NCBI GenBank assembly: GCA_023145835.1 | Contig: JAGLDH010000034.1 | Span: 1-64,000, forward strand | Direction: 5' to 3' | Length of the DNA: 64,000 nt | DNA from: Methylococcales bacterium | Lineage (GTDB): Bacteria > Pseudomonadota > Gammaproteobacteria > Methylococcales > Methylomonadaceae | Shown here: piece by piece, positions 26,436-33,297 of the stretch | Layout of the letters: each line of letters starts with the position of its first letter | Position numbering within the stretch: position 1 is the first letter of the stretch | Notes under the pieces: generated by a model | Databases searched by the model: none | What the model saw: the letters and a program-made list of their open reading frames with translations, nothing else | Told to the model about the DNA's origin: nothing | Program-made: the position numbers and the translations under genes

Positions 26436-26475
26436 AAACCAGTATTAATTGAACGCTTTCAATTAATACTGGTTT
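26436..26475 (-). terminator. Rho-independent terminator after accC
   Basis: An 18-bp perfect stem (AAACCAGTATTAATTGAA paired with TTCAATTAATACTGGTTT) with a 4-base loop. On the minus strand the stem ends in a T run (GGTTTTTCGC), and it lies 20 bp beyond the accC stop. It should end the aroQ-accB-accC transcript before the prmA promoter. Confidence 0.85.
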
Positions 26476-28317: not shown

Positions 28318-28764
28318 TTAATTTCTCTCTGATAATATCTGGTGAGCGGCTTGTAAAGCCAGATCATACCCGCTTGCCCCTAAACCACAAATAACGCCTA
28401 CGGCAATATCTGAAAAATAGGAATGGGCTCTAAAACTTTCGCGTGAATGAATGTTGGATAAATGAACTTCTATAAAAGGTATATTTGTGGCAAGTAGTGC
28501 ATCACGAATAGAAACACTAGTATGCGTAAAAGCGGCAGGGTTAATGATAATAAAATCAACCTTGTTTTGAAAAGCATGGTGAATTGTTTCAACAATTTCA
28601 TGCTCAGCATTTGATTGATAAAAATTAAGAATATGGCCTAATTTTTCAGCCTTTGTTAAGGCTGTCGCTTTAATGTCTTCTAGCGTCTTATTGCCATAAT
28701 GTCCCGGCTCTCTAATACCTAATAAGTTTAAGTTTGGGCCATTCAGTATGGAAATTGTCGCCAT
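28318..28764 (-). CDS. aroQ: Type II 3-dehydroquinate dehydratase
   Basis: A 148-residue shikimate-pathway enzyme converting 3-dehydroquinate to 3-dehydroshikimate. Signatures are [19 protein letters not shown] (residues 6-24), with the catalytic tyrosine in [25 protein letters not shown] (about residues 74-91), and [17 protein letters not shown] with the catalytic histidine. It is the first clear gene of the aroQ-accB-accC operon, downstream of the arfA-like gene on the same strand. Confidence 0.97.
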
Positions 28765-28812: not shown

Positions 28813-29106
28813 TTAAATGCTTTTGTCCAGAAATATGTCGTTTTTAAGTAAGATAGCGACAAAACAAGTGTTTTTTGTGTAATTTATTGACTTTTTGATA
28901 ACAGACGTTTCTATTAACAAGGAGCCTTTTCCAATATTACTGAACAGTAATATTGGAAAAGGCTCCTTGTTTTTATGTTTAGCATTACGTTGATATTTTG
29001 TTTTATCTTTAAAAATTTGGGTTTTATTAAATTTGGCGGCAAACTTTGCCACTAGATTTCTGGACGAACAAACACTAACTTGTGTTGCTGTTTTTCTCTT
29101 TTTCAT
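28813..29106 (-). CDS. arfA: ArfA-like ribosome rescue factor with internal hairpin
   Basis: A small basic protein preceded by a good Shine-Dalgarno (AAGGAG, seven bases before the ATG). Residues 33-48, KDKTKYQRNAKHKNKE, align without gaps to the basic tail of E. coli ArfA, KGKGSYMRKGKHGNRG, sharing 7 of 16 positions; this tail enters the empty mRNA channel. Directly after it, codons 46-64 are a 27-bp perfect hairpin with its loop at codon 55, and no stop precedes it. In E. coli arfA a coding-region hairpin at the same relative place is cut by RNase III or terminates transcription, so the mRNA lacks a stop and tmRNA destroys the product unless trans-translation fails. Residues 65-97 are probably rarely made. 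Alternative: another short basic gammaproteobacterial family (the RNLVAKFAAKFNK part is not ArfA-typical). Confidence 0.6.
   Translation of the reverse strand: MKKRKTATQVSVCSSRNLVAKFAAKFNKTQIFKDKTKYQRNAKHKNKEPFPILLFSNIGKGSLLIETSVIKKSINYTKNTCFVAILLKNDIFLDKSI
28916..28971. terminator. 27-bp perfect hairpin inside the arfA-like coding region
   Basis: AACAAGGAGCCTTTTCCAAT with ATTACTG at 28916-28942 is the exact complement of 28945-28971, with a two-base centre. On the plus strand it is followed by TTTT; on the minus strand, the coding direction, the T run is poor (TTGTTAATAG). The long perfect duplex is therefore more like an RNase III substrate than a plain terminator for the gene that encodes it. 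Confidence 0.8.
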
Positions 29107-29175
29107 ACTGACTCCTTAAGTAAAAGTTGATTAATCACCATATACCATTAATATAGGCTGTTATTTGAACATAGA

Positions 29176-31050
29176 TTGCCAGTGAATTTCCAGAAAAAAT
29201 TTAACGTTATTGTAGTTGGCGGAGGTCATGCCGGTACTGAAGCTGCATTAGCAGCAGCCCGTTGCGGTGCCGAAACTTTATTGCTGACCCAAAATATTGA
29301 TACGCTAGGGCAAATGAGCTGTAACCCCGCCATTGGTGGTATTGGTAAAGGGCATTTAGTTAAAGAAATTGATGCTTTGGGGGGCGCGATGGCTCTGGCT
29401 GCTGATAAGGCGGGTATTCAATTCCGTACTTTAAACGCGAGTAAAGGGCCTGCTGTTCGTGCAACACGTGCTCAAGCAGATCGTAGCTTATATAAGCAAG
29501 CAATCAAGAGCATTCTTGAAAATCAAGAAAAACTTACTTTATTTCAACAAACTGTTGTCGATTTTATTGTTGAGGGAGATAGAGTTGTTGGCGTCAAGAC
29601 TCAAATGGGATTAGATTTCTCAGCTCAGGCAATTGTCTTAACTACGGGTACTTTTTTAGATGGGCGGATCCATATTGGATTAGAAAACTATAGTGGAGGA
29701 CGTGCTAGTGATTCAGCATCGATCGCTTTAGCTAATCGCTTACGCGAATTACCATTTCGAGTTGATAGACTGAAAACGGGGACGCCACCTCGAATTGATG
29801 GGCGAAGTATTAATTTTGACAAGCTTGAAGTTCAGCATGGTGATGATATTTTACCCATATTTTCATTTATGGGGTCTCGTGAACAACATCCTCGTCAAAT
29901 CCCTTGCTACATCACCCGAACGAACAGCAGAACACATGAGATTATTCGGTCTGGCATGAATCGTTCGCCTATGTATACGGGGGTTATTGATGGCGTTGGC
30001 CCGCGTTATTGTCCATCAATTGAAGATAAGGTTGTTCGTTTTGCAGATAGAGACTCTCATCAGATATTTGTTGAGCCTGAGGGGCTGGAAACGCATGAAA
30101 TATATCCTAACGGTATTTCAACCAGTCTGCCTTTTGATATTCAATGTCAATTAGTTCAGTCTATGCTTGGATTTGAAAATGCCGTTATCATAAGGCCTGG
30201 TTATGCGATTGAATATGATTACTTTAACCCAATTGATTTAAAATCTTCCTTAGAAACAAAATATATGGATGGATTGTTTTTTGCCGGACAAATTAATGGT
30301 ACTACAGGGTATGAAGAAGCTGCAGCTCAAGGTTTAATTGCTGGTTTGAATGCTGCACGATTAACTCAAGATTTAGAAAGTTGGTGTCCTGAACGGGATG
30401 AAGCCTATATAGGCGTAATGATTGATGATTTGATTACTCGTGGTACGCAAGAACCTTATAGAATGTTTACGAGTCGTGCAGAATATCGATTATTGCTAAG
30501 AGAAGATAACGCTGATTTGCGATTAACTGAAAAAGGAAAAGAACTTGGGTTGGTTGATGACTCTCGTTGGCAAATATTTGAGGAAAAAAGAGAATCTATT
30601 GTTCAATTACAAAATGATTTAGGGAAACAATGGGTTAGATCTGGCACGGATAAAGCTCAACAAGCTGAACGATTGTGGGGTAAAGAATTAAAAAAAGAAG
30701 CAAGTATGATGTCTCTGCTCCGTAGACCCGAAGTGGATGTTATTAACTTGCTTGATTTTGCTGGAAAAGATAATGTAGATGAGCAGGTAGGGGAGCAAGT
30801 GGCAATACAAGCAAAATATGCTGGTTACATTGATAGGCAACAAACTGAAATAAACAGAACTAAGCGGTATAATCATTTGAAACTGCCTGTCGGTGAGGAT
30901 TACAGTAAGGTTTCTGGTTTATCTAATGAAGTCAGTGAAAAACTAAAAATACAAAAGCCGGAAACATTAGGTCAGGCGTCTAGAATACCCGGTATAACCC
31001 CTGCAGCAATCTCTTTGCTCCTTGTTCACCTTAAAAAGAAATCAGCTTAA
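29176..31050 (+). CDS. mnmG: tRNA uridine-5-carboxymethylaminomethyl modification enzyme MnmG
   Basis: A 624-residue FAD protein that, with MnmE, installs cmnm5 on the wobble uridine of several tRNAs. FAD site [19 protein letters not shown] (about residues 13-31), then [18 protein letters not shown] (about 48-65), and [14 protein letters not shown] and [14 protein letters not shown] further on. The open frame starts at a TTG (29176), with GTG at 29182 as alternative; no ATG fits and no strong Shine-Dalgarno is seen. It heads mnmG-rsmG-parA-parB, a block often near oriC. The usual upstream neighbours mnmE and yidC are absent. Confidence 0.97.
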
Positions 31051-31679
31051 TGGAAAAATGTCGAACGATAATGCAGCAAGGGTTGCAGGAATTGAATATA
31101 GAGGCTGATGAAAAAAAGATAGAATTATTGTTGGCATTTATTAAGCTTATTGAAAAATGGAATAAGGCATATAATTTAACAGCTGTTCGTAATCGAGAAG
31201 ATATGGTTCGATTACATATACTTGATAGTTTGGCGATTCTTCCCTTTGTAAAAGGAGATCGAATAGCCGATATAGGGACAGGAGCAGGTTTGCCAGGTAT
31301 TCCTTTAGCTGTTTTTTTACCGAATGTTAAGTTTACTTTGGTTGATTCTAATTCAAAAAAAACTCGGTTTGTACAGCAAGCCATATTAGAATTAAAATTA
31401 GATAATGTTTCGGTTATGCATAATCGAGTAGAAAAGATACACGTTGATGCGCCCTTTTCTTCCGTTATAATGCGTGCGTTTTCTAATTTGCAAGAAATTA
31501 TTGCTTTAACTCGTCATTTAATAAGTAACCAAGGTATTGTATTGGCAATGAAAGGTCAAAAACCAACTGAAGAACTCACCAGCTTTTCTGAGCAGTATAC
31601 TATTATCCCAATAATAGTCCCGGGTGTTGAGGCTGAAAGATGCTTAATCCGTATAGAAGGAATCATTCAAAATGGGTAA
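31050..31679 (+). CDS. rsmG: 16S rRNA (guanine527-N7)-methyltransferase
   Basis: A 209-residue SAM-dependent methyltransferase that modifies G527 of 16S rRNA. SAM motif IADIGTGAGLPGIPLAVFLP (about residues 71-90), preceded by NLTAVRNREDMVRLHILDSL (about 43-62). Its ATG overlaps the mnmG stop (TAATG), and its own end overlaps the parA start by eight bases, indicating a tightly coupled operon. Confidence 0.97.
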   Translation: MEKCRTIMQQGLQELNIEADEKKIELLLAFIKLIEKWNKAYNLTAVRNREDMVRLHILDSLAILPFVKGDRIADIGTGAGLPGIPLAVFLPNVKFTLVDSNSKKTRFVQQAILELKLDNVSVMHNRVEKIHVDAPFSSVIMRAFSNLQEIIALTRHLISNQGIVLAMKGQKPTEELTSFSEQYTIIPIIVPGVEAERCLIRIEGIIQNG

Positions 31680-32442
31680 AGTCATTGCGGTAAGTAATCA
31701 AAAAGGTGGTGTAGGAAAAACGACCACAAGTGTCAATCTTGCTGCTGCGCTAGCAGCGACTAATCGACGAATACTACTTATTGATTTAGACCCACAGGGT
31801 AATGCAGCAATGGGCTGTGGTATAGATAAAGATAAAGTTATCTATTCTACTTGTGAATTATTATTAGAAGAGGTTCCTGTTTCTGAAATTCTTATTCACA
31901 GTAAAGAACTAAAGCTAGATGTCATTCCTGGAAATACAGACTTAACAGCTGCGGAAGTTCAATTGATGGAAATAAAAAATAAAGAGAGAAGGCTTTCTGA
32001 TGCTCTGTTAAAAGTTAAAAATGAATACGACTATATTTTGATTGATTGTCCTCCTTCATTGAATATGCTGACGATTAATGCAATGGTTGCAGCAAATAGC
32101 ATATTAATCCCAATGCAATGTGAATATTATGCTTTGGAAGGTTTGTCTGATTTGATGGATACAATGAAAAATATTCGTGACAGGCTTAATCCAACATTGC
32201 ACCTTGAAGGTATACTAAGAACCATGGTTGATAATAGAAGTAGACTAACTAAGGATGTTTCTGATCAATTAGTTGAGTATTTTGGAGACAGAGTTTTTAG
32301 AAGTTTTATTCCTCGTAATATTCGATTGGCTGAAGCACCAAGTCATGGTCTTCCTGTTATGTTTTACGACAAAAGTTCTCGAGGAGCGATTGCTTATATT
32401 GCATTAGCTGGTGAAATGATTAGAAAAGAAGAGAAGAAATAG
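31672..32442 (+). CDS. parA: Chromosome partitioning ATPase ParA (Soj)
   Basis: A 256-residue Walker-type ATPase that moves ParB-parS complexes on the nucleoid. The deviant Walker A is KGGVGKTTTSVNLAAALA (residues 11-28), followed by LLIDLDPQGNAAMGCG (Walker A') and YILIDCPPSLNMLT (Walker B region). Length matches chromosomal ParA/Soj of gammaproteobacteria. It is directly followed by parB with no spacer. Confidence 0.97.
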   Translation: MGKVIAVSNQKGGVGKTTTSVNLAAALAATNRRILLIDLDPQGNAAMGCGIDKDKVIYSTCELLLEEVPVSEILIHSKELKLDVIPGNTDLTAAEVQLMEIKNKERRLSDALLKVKNEYDYILIDCPPSLNMLTINAMVAANSILIPMQCEYYALEGLSDLMDTMKNIRDRLNPTLHLEGILRTMVDNRSRLTKDVSDQLVEYFGDRVFRSFIPRNIRLAEAPSHGLPVMFYDKSSRGAIAYIALAGEMIRKEEKK

Positions 32443-33297
32443 ATGGCTGTAAAAAAAAGAGGGTTAGGGCGTGGATTAAATGCTTTGTTAGGTGATGTAA
32501 GTCCAGCAGAACCAAAAACAACAACAAATCAAGATCTAAATACATTACCTATAGAGTTTTTGCAGCGGGGGAAATATCAGCCACGAAAAGATATGGATCC
32601 TGAAACACTCAGGGAGTTGGCTGATTCAATAAAAGCACAAGGTATTATTCAACCAATTATTGTACGCTCCATTGCTAATGATAAGTATGAGATTATCGCT
32701 GGTGAGCGTCGTTGGAGAGCGGCTCAATTAGCAGCATTACAAGAGGTTCCTGTTGTTATCAGAGAAATTGATGACAAGACAGCAATGGCTGTCGCACTTA
32801 TCGAAAATATTCAACGAGAAGATTTAAACTCTTTAGAGGAGTCGGAGGCTTTAAAAAGATTGGTTGAAGAGTTTGATATGACCCATCAGCAAGTTGCTGA
32901 TGCTGTTGGAAAATCTAGAGCTACGGTTTCTAATTTGTTACGTTTGCTTGATTTGCATAGTGATGTAAAACACCTTTTAGGTAAAGGACTTATAGAAATG
33001 GGGCATGCAAGAGCACTATTGTCTTTAGAGGATGAAAAACAAGTAGAAATAGCCAATAAAATTGTTGCTCAAGGGTTAACTGTACGAGCCGTTGAAAAAA
33101 TAATAAAAGGGCTGAGTGATGAAAAAAAAGTTGTTCAAAAGAAACAAGATACTGATACGTTAAGACTACAAGAGGAATTAACAGAAAAGATTGGCGCTAA
33201 AGTGACTATTAATCATCAACAAACAGGTAAAGGAAAGTTGGTTTTTAGTTACACTAGTCTTGAAGAGTTGGAAGGGATTATTAGTAGAATAAATTAA
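32443..33297 (+). CDS. parB: Chromosome partitioning protein ParB (Spo0J)
   Basis: A 284-residue CTPase/DNA clamp protein that loads at parS sites. N-terminal RGLGRGLNALLGD is the ParA-stimulating peptide (residues 5-17), the CTP-binding ParB/Srx domain has GERRWRAAQLA (about residues 87-97) and ENIQREDLNSLEE (about 126-138), and the helix-turn-helix is THQQVADAVGKSRATVSNLLRLL. A C-terminal dimerisation domain follows. I did not find a 16-bp parS palindrome (TGTTTCACGTGAAACA) in the window. Confidence 0.97.
   Translation: MAVKKRGLGRGLNALLGDVSPAEPKTTTNQDLNTLPIEFLQRGKYQPRKDMDPETLRELADSIKAQGIIQPIIVRSIANDKYEIIAGERRWRAAQLAALQEVPVVIREIDDKTAMAVALIENIQREDLNSLEESEALKRLVEEFDMTHQQVADAVGKSRATVSNLLRLLDLHSDVKHLLGKGLIEMGHARALLSLEDEKQVEIANKIVAQGLTVRAVEKIIKGLSDEKKVVQKKQDTDTLRLQEELTEKIGAKVTINHQQTGKGKLVFSYTSLEELEGIISRIN

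Follow-up and report, generated by a model that had tools for sequence, protein, structure and literature searches.

In Escherichia coli, the arfA message carries a stem-loop at nt 146-206 that RNase III cuts at positions 165 and 189 (PMC10070815), and the arfA product is kept low by trans-translation (PMC8012679). The tail of ArfA is the part that binds the ribosome channel, and ArfA residues 15-31 contact RF2 (PMC6299226, PMC8012679). In Bacillus subtilis, brfA has an intrinsic terminator with a T-stretch inside its frame, BrfA (YqkK) is made from non-stop mRNA under negative control by trans-translation, and its authors call it evolutionarily distinct from ArfA (PMC6881298). Francisella, a gammaproteobacterium without ArfA, has ArfT, a 40-aa rescue factor whose C-terminal stretch is basic and in whose gene neither a terminator nor an RNase III site precedes the stop codon; ArfB (YaeJ), a further backup rescue factor, has its own hydrolase domain (PMC6299226). 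A survey published in 2024 covered 15,259 genomes and had tmRNA, SmpB, ArfA and ArfB among its targets; the parts examined make no mention of DUF7230 (PMC11633108). DUF7230 (PF23876) is a Pfam family without an assigned function. A full-text search of open-licence papers found none mentioning 'DUF7230', the titles and opening lines of abstracts in the open-licence rescue-factor literature do not name it, and in one methanotroph paper ribosome rescue appears in the reference list only (PMC7154130).

We analysed a DUF7230 gene in a 64,000-nt stretch of DNA from a Methylococcales bacterium (the window, meaning the whole stretch). We propose, with a probability of roughly 0.8, that the DUF7230 protein of methanotrophs is a diverged ArfA-type protein, a tmRNA-backup rescue factor made from a non-stop mRNA. 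The ArfA-type reading draws on the order of hairpin and stop codon, the covariation of the stem, the likeness to arfA loci, the controls on window genes, the occurrence of DUF7230 against that of ArfA (172/201 versus 0/201 genomes), the sequences that bridge the two families, the hairpins in other lineages, and the precedents of arfA and brfA. The features of the locus are collected in Table 1.

Table 1. Features of the focal locus, in window positions.
Feature	Position	Strand	Evidence
DUF7230 reading frame, 97 codons	28813..29106	(-)	PF23876 at E 1.1e-17, residues 16-52
Shine-Dalgarno AAGGAG, 5 nt before ATG	29112..29117	(-)	read from sequence
Conserved core, codons 17-48 (NxVAKxAxxFNK...DKTKYxRxxKHKxxE)	28963..29058	(-)	two alignments
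ArfA-like basic tail, codons 33-48	28963..29010	(-)	hhalign, 15 columns, 51% probability
Coding-region hairpin, predicted RNase III substrate; cutting would remove the stop codon	28916..28971	(-)	inverted repeat and fold
mnmG (gidA), conserved divergent neighbour	29176..31050	(+)	154/169 loci, divergent from DUF7230 in 154/154
Next gene downstream, same strand, presumably aroQ	28318..28764	(-)	at this genome's locus only, 1/169

The sequence-only reading had described a 97-codon frame with a Shine-Dalgarno sequence, an ArfA-like tail at codons 33-48 and a 27-nt perfect hairpin beginning at codon 46 with no stop codon ahead of it, and these points were confirmed. The frame starts with ATG, its first stop is codon 98, and codons 33-48 encode KDKTKYQRNAKHKNKE. 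By Pfam's own threshold the focal protein is a DUF7230 member (64.2 bits, cut-off 27); the Pfam search gave no match to PF03889 (ArfA), the NCBIfam search gave no match, and a PDB sequence search found no relative of solved structure. The AlphaFold2 model of the focal protein is of low confidence (mean pLDDT 65.9) and contains helices at residues 18-29 and 40-43. A 13-bp inverted repeat (92%) at 28822-28834 and 29056-29068, near the end and the start of the frame, possibly arose by chance.

The hairpin consists of two 27-nt arms (28916-28942 and 28945-28971) that are 100% complementary with 2 nt between them. The inverted repeat begins at nt 136 of the frame, and its loop lies at nt 163-164 (codon 55). 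Folded as RNA, the repeat gives 26 bp and a 4-nt loop (-40.4 kcal/mol). No other perfect inverted repeat in the window with a loop of at most 10 nt is as long, the next elsewhere having 18 bp, and the longest perfect inverted repeats of five base-shuffled windows reach 9-11 bp. When the 28 codons around the hairpin were recoded synonymously, 0/200 versions reached the observed value (-41.4, against a mean of -14.6 and an sd of 4.9). A search of the window with 18 nt of the arm, allowing up to 3 mismatches, returned the two arms and nothing else. The arm is thus not a repeat dispersed there, and a dispersed palindrome was rejected as an explanation on this ground. The longest perfect inverted repeat outside the focal region, with 18 bp and a 4-nt loop, lies at 26436-26475 between two genes that we take to be prmA and accC.

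We then searched each orthologue for its strongest hairpin 3' of the conserved core and recorded where the stop codon falls relative to it. The hairpin scored is the best in a 195-nt stretch, and because some hairpin is always found in such a stretch, only strength, position and order carry weight. The scan took up 87 family loci, of which five were not parsed by the motif and one (L080) is cut by a contig end; the duplicates L021, L022, L035 and L050 were excluded, and the eight loci from other families (L023-L030) were assessed separately. The stop codon never lies before or within the 5' arm in any of the 81 orthologues; it follows the hairpin in 69, falls in the 3' arm in 9 and falls in the loop in 3. 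Their hairpins have 18-32 pairs with a median of -33.6 kcal/mol (range -49.7 to -19.5), and the 5' arm ends at a median codon of 53.7, with a 10-90% range of 52.0-54.3 and a full range of 46.7-62. The five loci missed by the motif agree with this order (4/4 by scan, L086 by eye), as do all 80 loci of a partly overlapping named set, with the stop after the hairpin in 67, in the 3' arm in 12 and in the loop in 1. Among the named loci, 39/80 are new relative to the first 81 and none is one of the five motif-missed loci; 3/80 have hairpins weaker than -20, the weakest being -14.8. The named relatives, which are the best 80 of 127 places, bear names such as Methylomonas, Methylobacter, Methylotuvimicrobium, Methylovulum, Crenothrix, Methylococcales bacterium and methanotrophic symbionts. 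Many of the family loci are top-scoring matches and do not form a random sample. Orthologues with a conserved stop codon ahead of the hairpin, looked for because the sequence-only reading had named them as evidence against itself, were found in none of these sets. The hairpin-before-stop arrangement of methanotroph DUF7230 is strongly supported.

As a control, we scored stretches centred on the stop codon in 47 window genes. Four of these genes have a hairpin of at least the strength of -19.5 around the stop, and the stop comes first in 4/4; the best, mostly weak, hairpins of all 47 genes show no preferred order (14 lie before the stop, 13 lie after it and 20 span it). Two observations on single features of the orthologues were made alongside. 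The genome G312 carries two DUF7230 genes (L077 and L078), both with a coding-region hairpin, and the stop lies in the 3' arm of one and in the loop of the other. A C-terminal Ala, considered with a degron in mind, ends 15/81 full-length orthologues, a raw count from which we draw no claim.

The stem shows signs of selection at the RNA level. The covariation set was selected for a common hairpin centre (54/81 orthologues, 42 after thinning), and over its 22 pairs 91% of cells hold standard pairs. Shifting the register by -1 to -4 lowers this figure to 34-51%, and none of 1000 shuffles exceeds 71%. Selection for a common centre works in favour of the percentage paired; it does not favour the two-sided changes, which occur in 21/22 stem pairs of the 42-sequence subset. 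For each of the arms GAGCCTTTTCC (L001), GAGGCTTCTCC (L064) and GAGGCTAGTCC (L041), the opposite arm is its complement. Synonymous recoding of 70 orthologues, with 11/81 skipped for their short frames, gave a median z of -3.7 (range -8.7 to -1.5), and only 35/70 beat all 200 recoded versions, a proportion that counts against the ArfA-type reading.

A hairpin at this place might instead serve as an ordinary (bidirectional) terminator or as an RNA-level regulator of the neighbouring genes, with the frame running through it by accident. The short T-run that follows the stem on the + strand (GTTTTTATG) and the start of the next (-) strand gene 48 bp past the focal stop codon would both suit such a role. 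On the coding strand, however, the stem is followed by AATAGAAACG, without the U-run of a BrfA-type terminator, and T-runs of at least 5 near the stem end occur in only 7/81 orthologues. The narrow placement of the 5' arm end (codon 52-54.3 in the middle 80% of orthologues), with no earlier stop in 81/81, also argues against an accidental frame, as do the strong hairpins of other window genes, which come after the stop in 4/4. Moreover, the gene that we take to be aroQ lies downstream in 1/169 loci, and the hairpin is kept regardless. We regard a terminator or regulator of this kind as very unlikely.

The lack of a coding-strand U-run and the T-runs in only 7/81 orthologues favour cleavage over termination, and judged from the sequence RNase III cleavage looks likelier than termination at the focal hairpin. 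If the cut distances of E. coli are transferred from the hairpin centre, the 5' cut would fall at about nt 152 and leave about 50 codons; roughly the first 50 codons are thus predicted to remain in the shortened focal mRNA. BrfA resembles the focal gene in the structure within its coding region, and differs from it in the terminator with a T-stretch, which the focal coding strand lacks. ArfT resembles DUF7230 in its small size, its basic C-terminal stretch and its origin in a gammaproteobacterium without ArfA, but it is unlike the focal gene in its length of 40 aa and in having neither kind of site before its stop codon. Both likenesses are by description.

DUF7230 was found in 172/201 genomes of the window's bacterial family (E <= 0.001), in 171 of them over the curated cut-off. 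A draw from that family under identical settings gave ArfA in 0/201 genomes. Across the class, DUF7230 occurs in 10/274 genomes and ArfA in 3/274; a draw over the phylum gave DUF7230 in 3/398 genomes, the window's own included. In the orders of G151 and G268, PF23876 is present in 2/17 and 2/2 genomes, with no new member added. The gene neighbourhood was compared over 169 loci, some from genomes present twice and some cut by contig ends. Since mnmG is divergent in all 154 loci that have it, the DUF7230 gene is inherited in place. The genes at 29176-33297 are presumably mnmG, rsmG, parA and parB in that order, an order often seen near bacterial replication origins.

The occurrence and placement of the gene also bear on whether the frame is translated at all, or whether the hairpin is a structured RNA or a mobile palindrome. 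The ORF is small, and the codons 3' of the hairpin vary freely among orthologues, as an untranslated frame would allow. Against this stand the conservation of the protein in 172/201 genomes with a curated Pfam model, the Shine-Dalgarno sequence, the fixed place divergent from mnmG in 154/169 loci, and the window's lack of a second copy of the arm. An untranslated frame is therefore, in our estimate, extremely improbable.

We next compared DUF7230 with ArfA. Like ArfA (PF03889), DUF7230 is a small basic protein with a tail of the form K-x-K-x-x-Y-x-R-K-x-K-H, and its gene likewise has a strong in-frame hairpin; in 26/31 ArfA loci the stop falls in the loop or further downstream. By the same scanner, 15 of these 31 loci have their stop after the hairpin, 8 have it in the 3' arm, 3 in the loop and 5 in the 5' arm; one of 32 loci (L062) was unmatched by the motif, and the scan started from the KGKG motif, not after the NPVAK core. 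One ArfA locus (L109) matches the focal gene in the start of its 5' arm, at codon 46.0. The 5' arms of ArfA loci end at codon 40-74 with a median of 63, later and more variable than those of DUF7230, so the near-constant codon 54 is no ArfA trait.

At the level of the protein, the direct comparison is confined to the tail. Membership in ArfA by HMM was rejected, as PF03889 matches neither the focal protein, nor any of 25 DUF7230 members (0/25, E up to 1), nor anything in the focal genome. The KGKG columns are invariant in 22 ArfA rows and absent from 25 DUF7230 rows, which counts against the ArfA-type reading. When the 25 DUF7230 sequences were aligned with the 22 ArfA sequences by hhalign, only the tail aligned, at 51% probability, and in direct comparison the N-terminal half of the focal protein is unlike that of ArfA. 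The ArfA HMM scored 0/25 DUF7230 members above all shuffles and 11/25 above the 99th percentile; conversely, the DUF7230 HMM scored 7/22 ArfA members above all shuffles and 10 above the 99th percentile. N-terminal parts alone score no better than shuffles, and whole-length homology is unsupported by direct comparison. Seven of the 25 DUF7230 members also have a weak DUF6291 match (best E 4.1e-4).

An ArfA-like stretch is present in three PF23876 members that belong to other lineages, L219, L218 and L030, and these act as bridges; in L219 the stretch reads NPIAKSLRSPHLRLQVVKNKK, compared with NALKALVTSPLFRxRVEKxKK in ArfA. Pfam puts these sequences in DUF7230 and none of them in ArfA, L030 being borderline (26.7 bits, cut-off 27). 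Scored with the ArfA HMM, all three exceed every one of about 3000 shuffles of their own sequence, L219 by a clear margin (15.2 bits, the best shuffle having 9.1) and the others narrowly. Scored with the DUF7230 HMM, L219 again exceeds every shuffle, while 4 shuffles reach the score of L218 and 26 that of L030. Taken jointly, the three bridges, which were picked after inspection, align with DUF7230 at 90% and with the N-terminal half of ArfA at 85% in local mode, and at 49% and 36% in global mode. Because the bridges were picked after inspection, this comparison of sequences makes common descent of DUF7230 and ArfA plausible and does not prove it.

The sequence-only reading had proposed a family search against ArfA and had named a hit to an unrelated small protein as evidence against itself. 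The search did not return PF03889; it returned DUF7230, which has no assigned function, and three members of DUF7230 bridge to ArfA. The further claim, that the same tmRNA-backup circuit operates here in a divergent sequence, is supported, having survived both of the refuting conditions set for it, but the gene is not an arfA by Pfam, and the termination that had been considered along with RNase III cleavage looks less likely than the latter. Besides the missing KGKG stretch, several results weigh against the ArfA-type reading: the lack of a Pfam match to ArfA, a direct comparison that reaches the tail only, the lower values of the bridges in global mode, the 5' arm ends that differ from those of ArfA loci, the low confidence of the predicted structure, and the PF23876 members of other families that have no strong hairpin ahead of the stop.

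The non-stop hairpin circuit could also be real while the protein is some other small ribosome- or RNA-binding protein made only when trans-translation fails, such as a hibernation or stress factor that recruits no release factor. The confinement of the ArfA likeness to the tail in direct comparison is compatible with this, and ArfB is already available as an alternative backup. Arguing the other way, the tail corresponds to the channel-binding part of ArfA and ArfA residues 15-31 make the RF2 contacts (PMC6299226, PMC8012679), the bridges extend the ArfA likeness into the RF2-contacting half, and the genomes of the family have DUF7230 in 172/201 and ArfA in 0/201. We consider a protein of this other kind unlikely, and the ArfA-type reading remains the preferred one.

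The cellular setting was examined in the genomes themselves. A tmRNA was found over the Rfam threshold in 18/21 genomes searched, and none was over it in three assemblies of the genus, G000 (the window's own), G004 and G006; the result for the window's own assembly counts against the ArfA-type reading. The window's genome is an assembly of 245 contigs with 95.6% completeness, so an assembly gap could account for the missing tmRNA, as could a real loss. The focal genome has three release-factor-like genes, two of which are fragments best matched by RF1 and RF2 (NCBIfam) and the third is ArfB over the cut-off (NF006718, E 8.5e-55). This separate ArfB gene also counts against the proposed role, a backup being already present, and the DUF7230 gene would then be one of two backups. 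ArfB has a hydrolase domain of its own (PMC6299226), unlike the 55-residue DUF7230 product, in which Pfam finds no such domain.

Under the ArfA-type reading, a nuclease, probably RNase III, would cleave the DUF7230 mRNA inside the hairpin of 26-27 bp whose start is at codon 46. The remaining message would lack a stop codon, and its product of about 50-55 residues would retain the basic tail. tmRNA-SmpB would normally free the ribosomes at the cut end and tag the DUF7230 product for degradation, and with trans-translation absent or saturated the untagged protein would accumulate. On stalled ribosomes, whose mRNA channel is empty, its basic tail would then enter that channel, and the protein would free these ribosomes by recruiting a release factor (probably RF2). 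The focal gene is probably on only when the main ribosome-rescue system fails. We infer the truncation, the nuclease, the mRNA end, the control by tmRNA, the ribosome binding, the release factor and the rescue activity of DUF7230. Read in this way, a family so far without an assigned function gains a testable one, and a probable backup of trans-translation can be named for methanotrophs, a family with ArfA in 0/201 genomes. Position-fixed, covarying hairpins ahead of the stop codon can also flag rescue factors that escape sequence searches for ArfA, a point of relevance to the number of such factors still to be discovered.

We also examined ten PF23876 members outside the methanotroph family, eight from the class draw and two from the phylum draw. 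A hairpin before the stop, with other hairpin sequences, is present in 5/10 of them (L023 and L024, both with the stop in the 3' arm, L027, L028, and L219 by eye), and terminator-like T-runs occur at L027, L028 and L219. The other five have no strong hairpin before the stop; the hairpins of L025, L026 and L218 are weak (-8 to -20), and the 5' arm contains the stop at L029 and L030. As 5/10 lack the order, DUF7230 as defined by Pfam is not uniformly of the hairpin-before-stop type. Tentatively, and with somewhat less than even confidence, we suggest that DUF7230 and ArfA are two branches of an older superfamily of RF-recruiting rescue factors that is wider in Pseudomonadota than ArfA alone suggests. 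Its hairpin switch would have been kept or re-invented with unrelated sequences, of the RNase III type in methanotrophs and of the terminator type elsewhere, and members without a hairpin may be rescue factors with constitutive expression. Two of the hairpin-poor members were looked at individually. In L025 (1501-1581), which has no strong hairpin, the stop precedes the best one, and L026 (212-292), also without a strong hairpin, has an acidic C-terminus; both may be constitutive or functionally different relatives.
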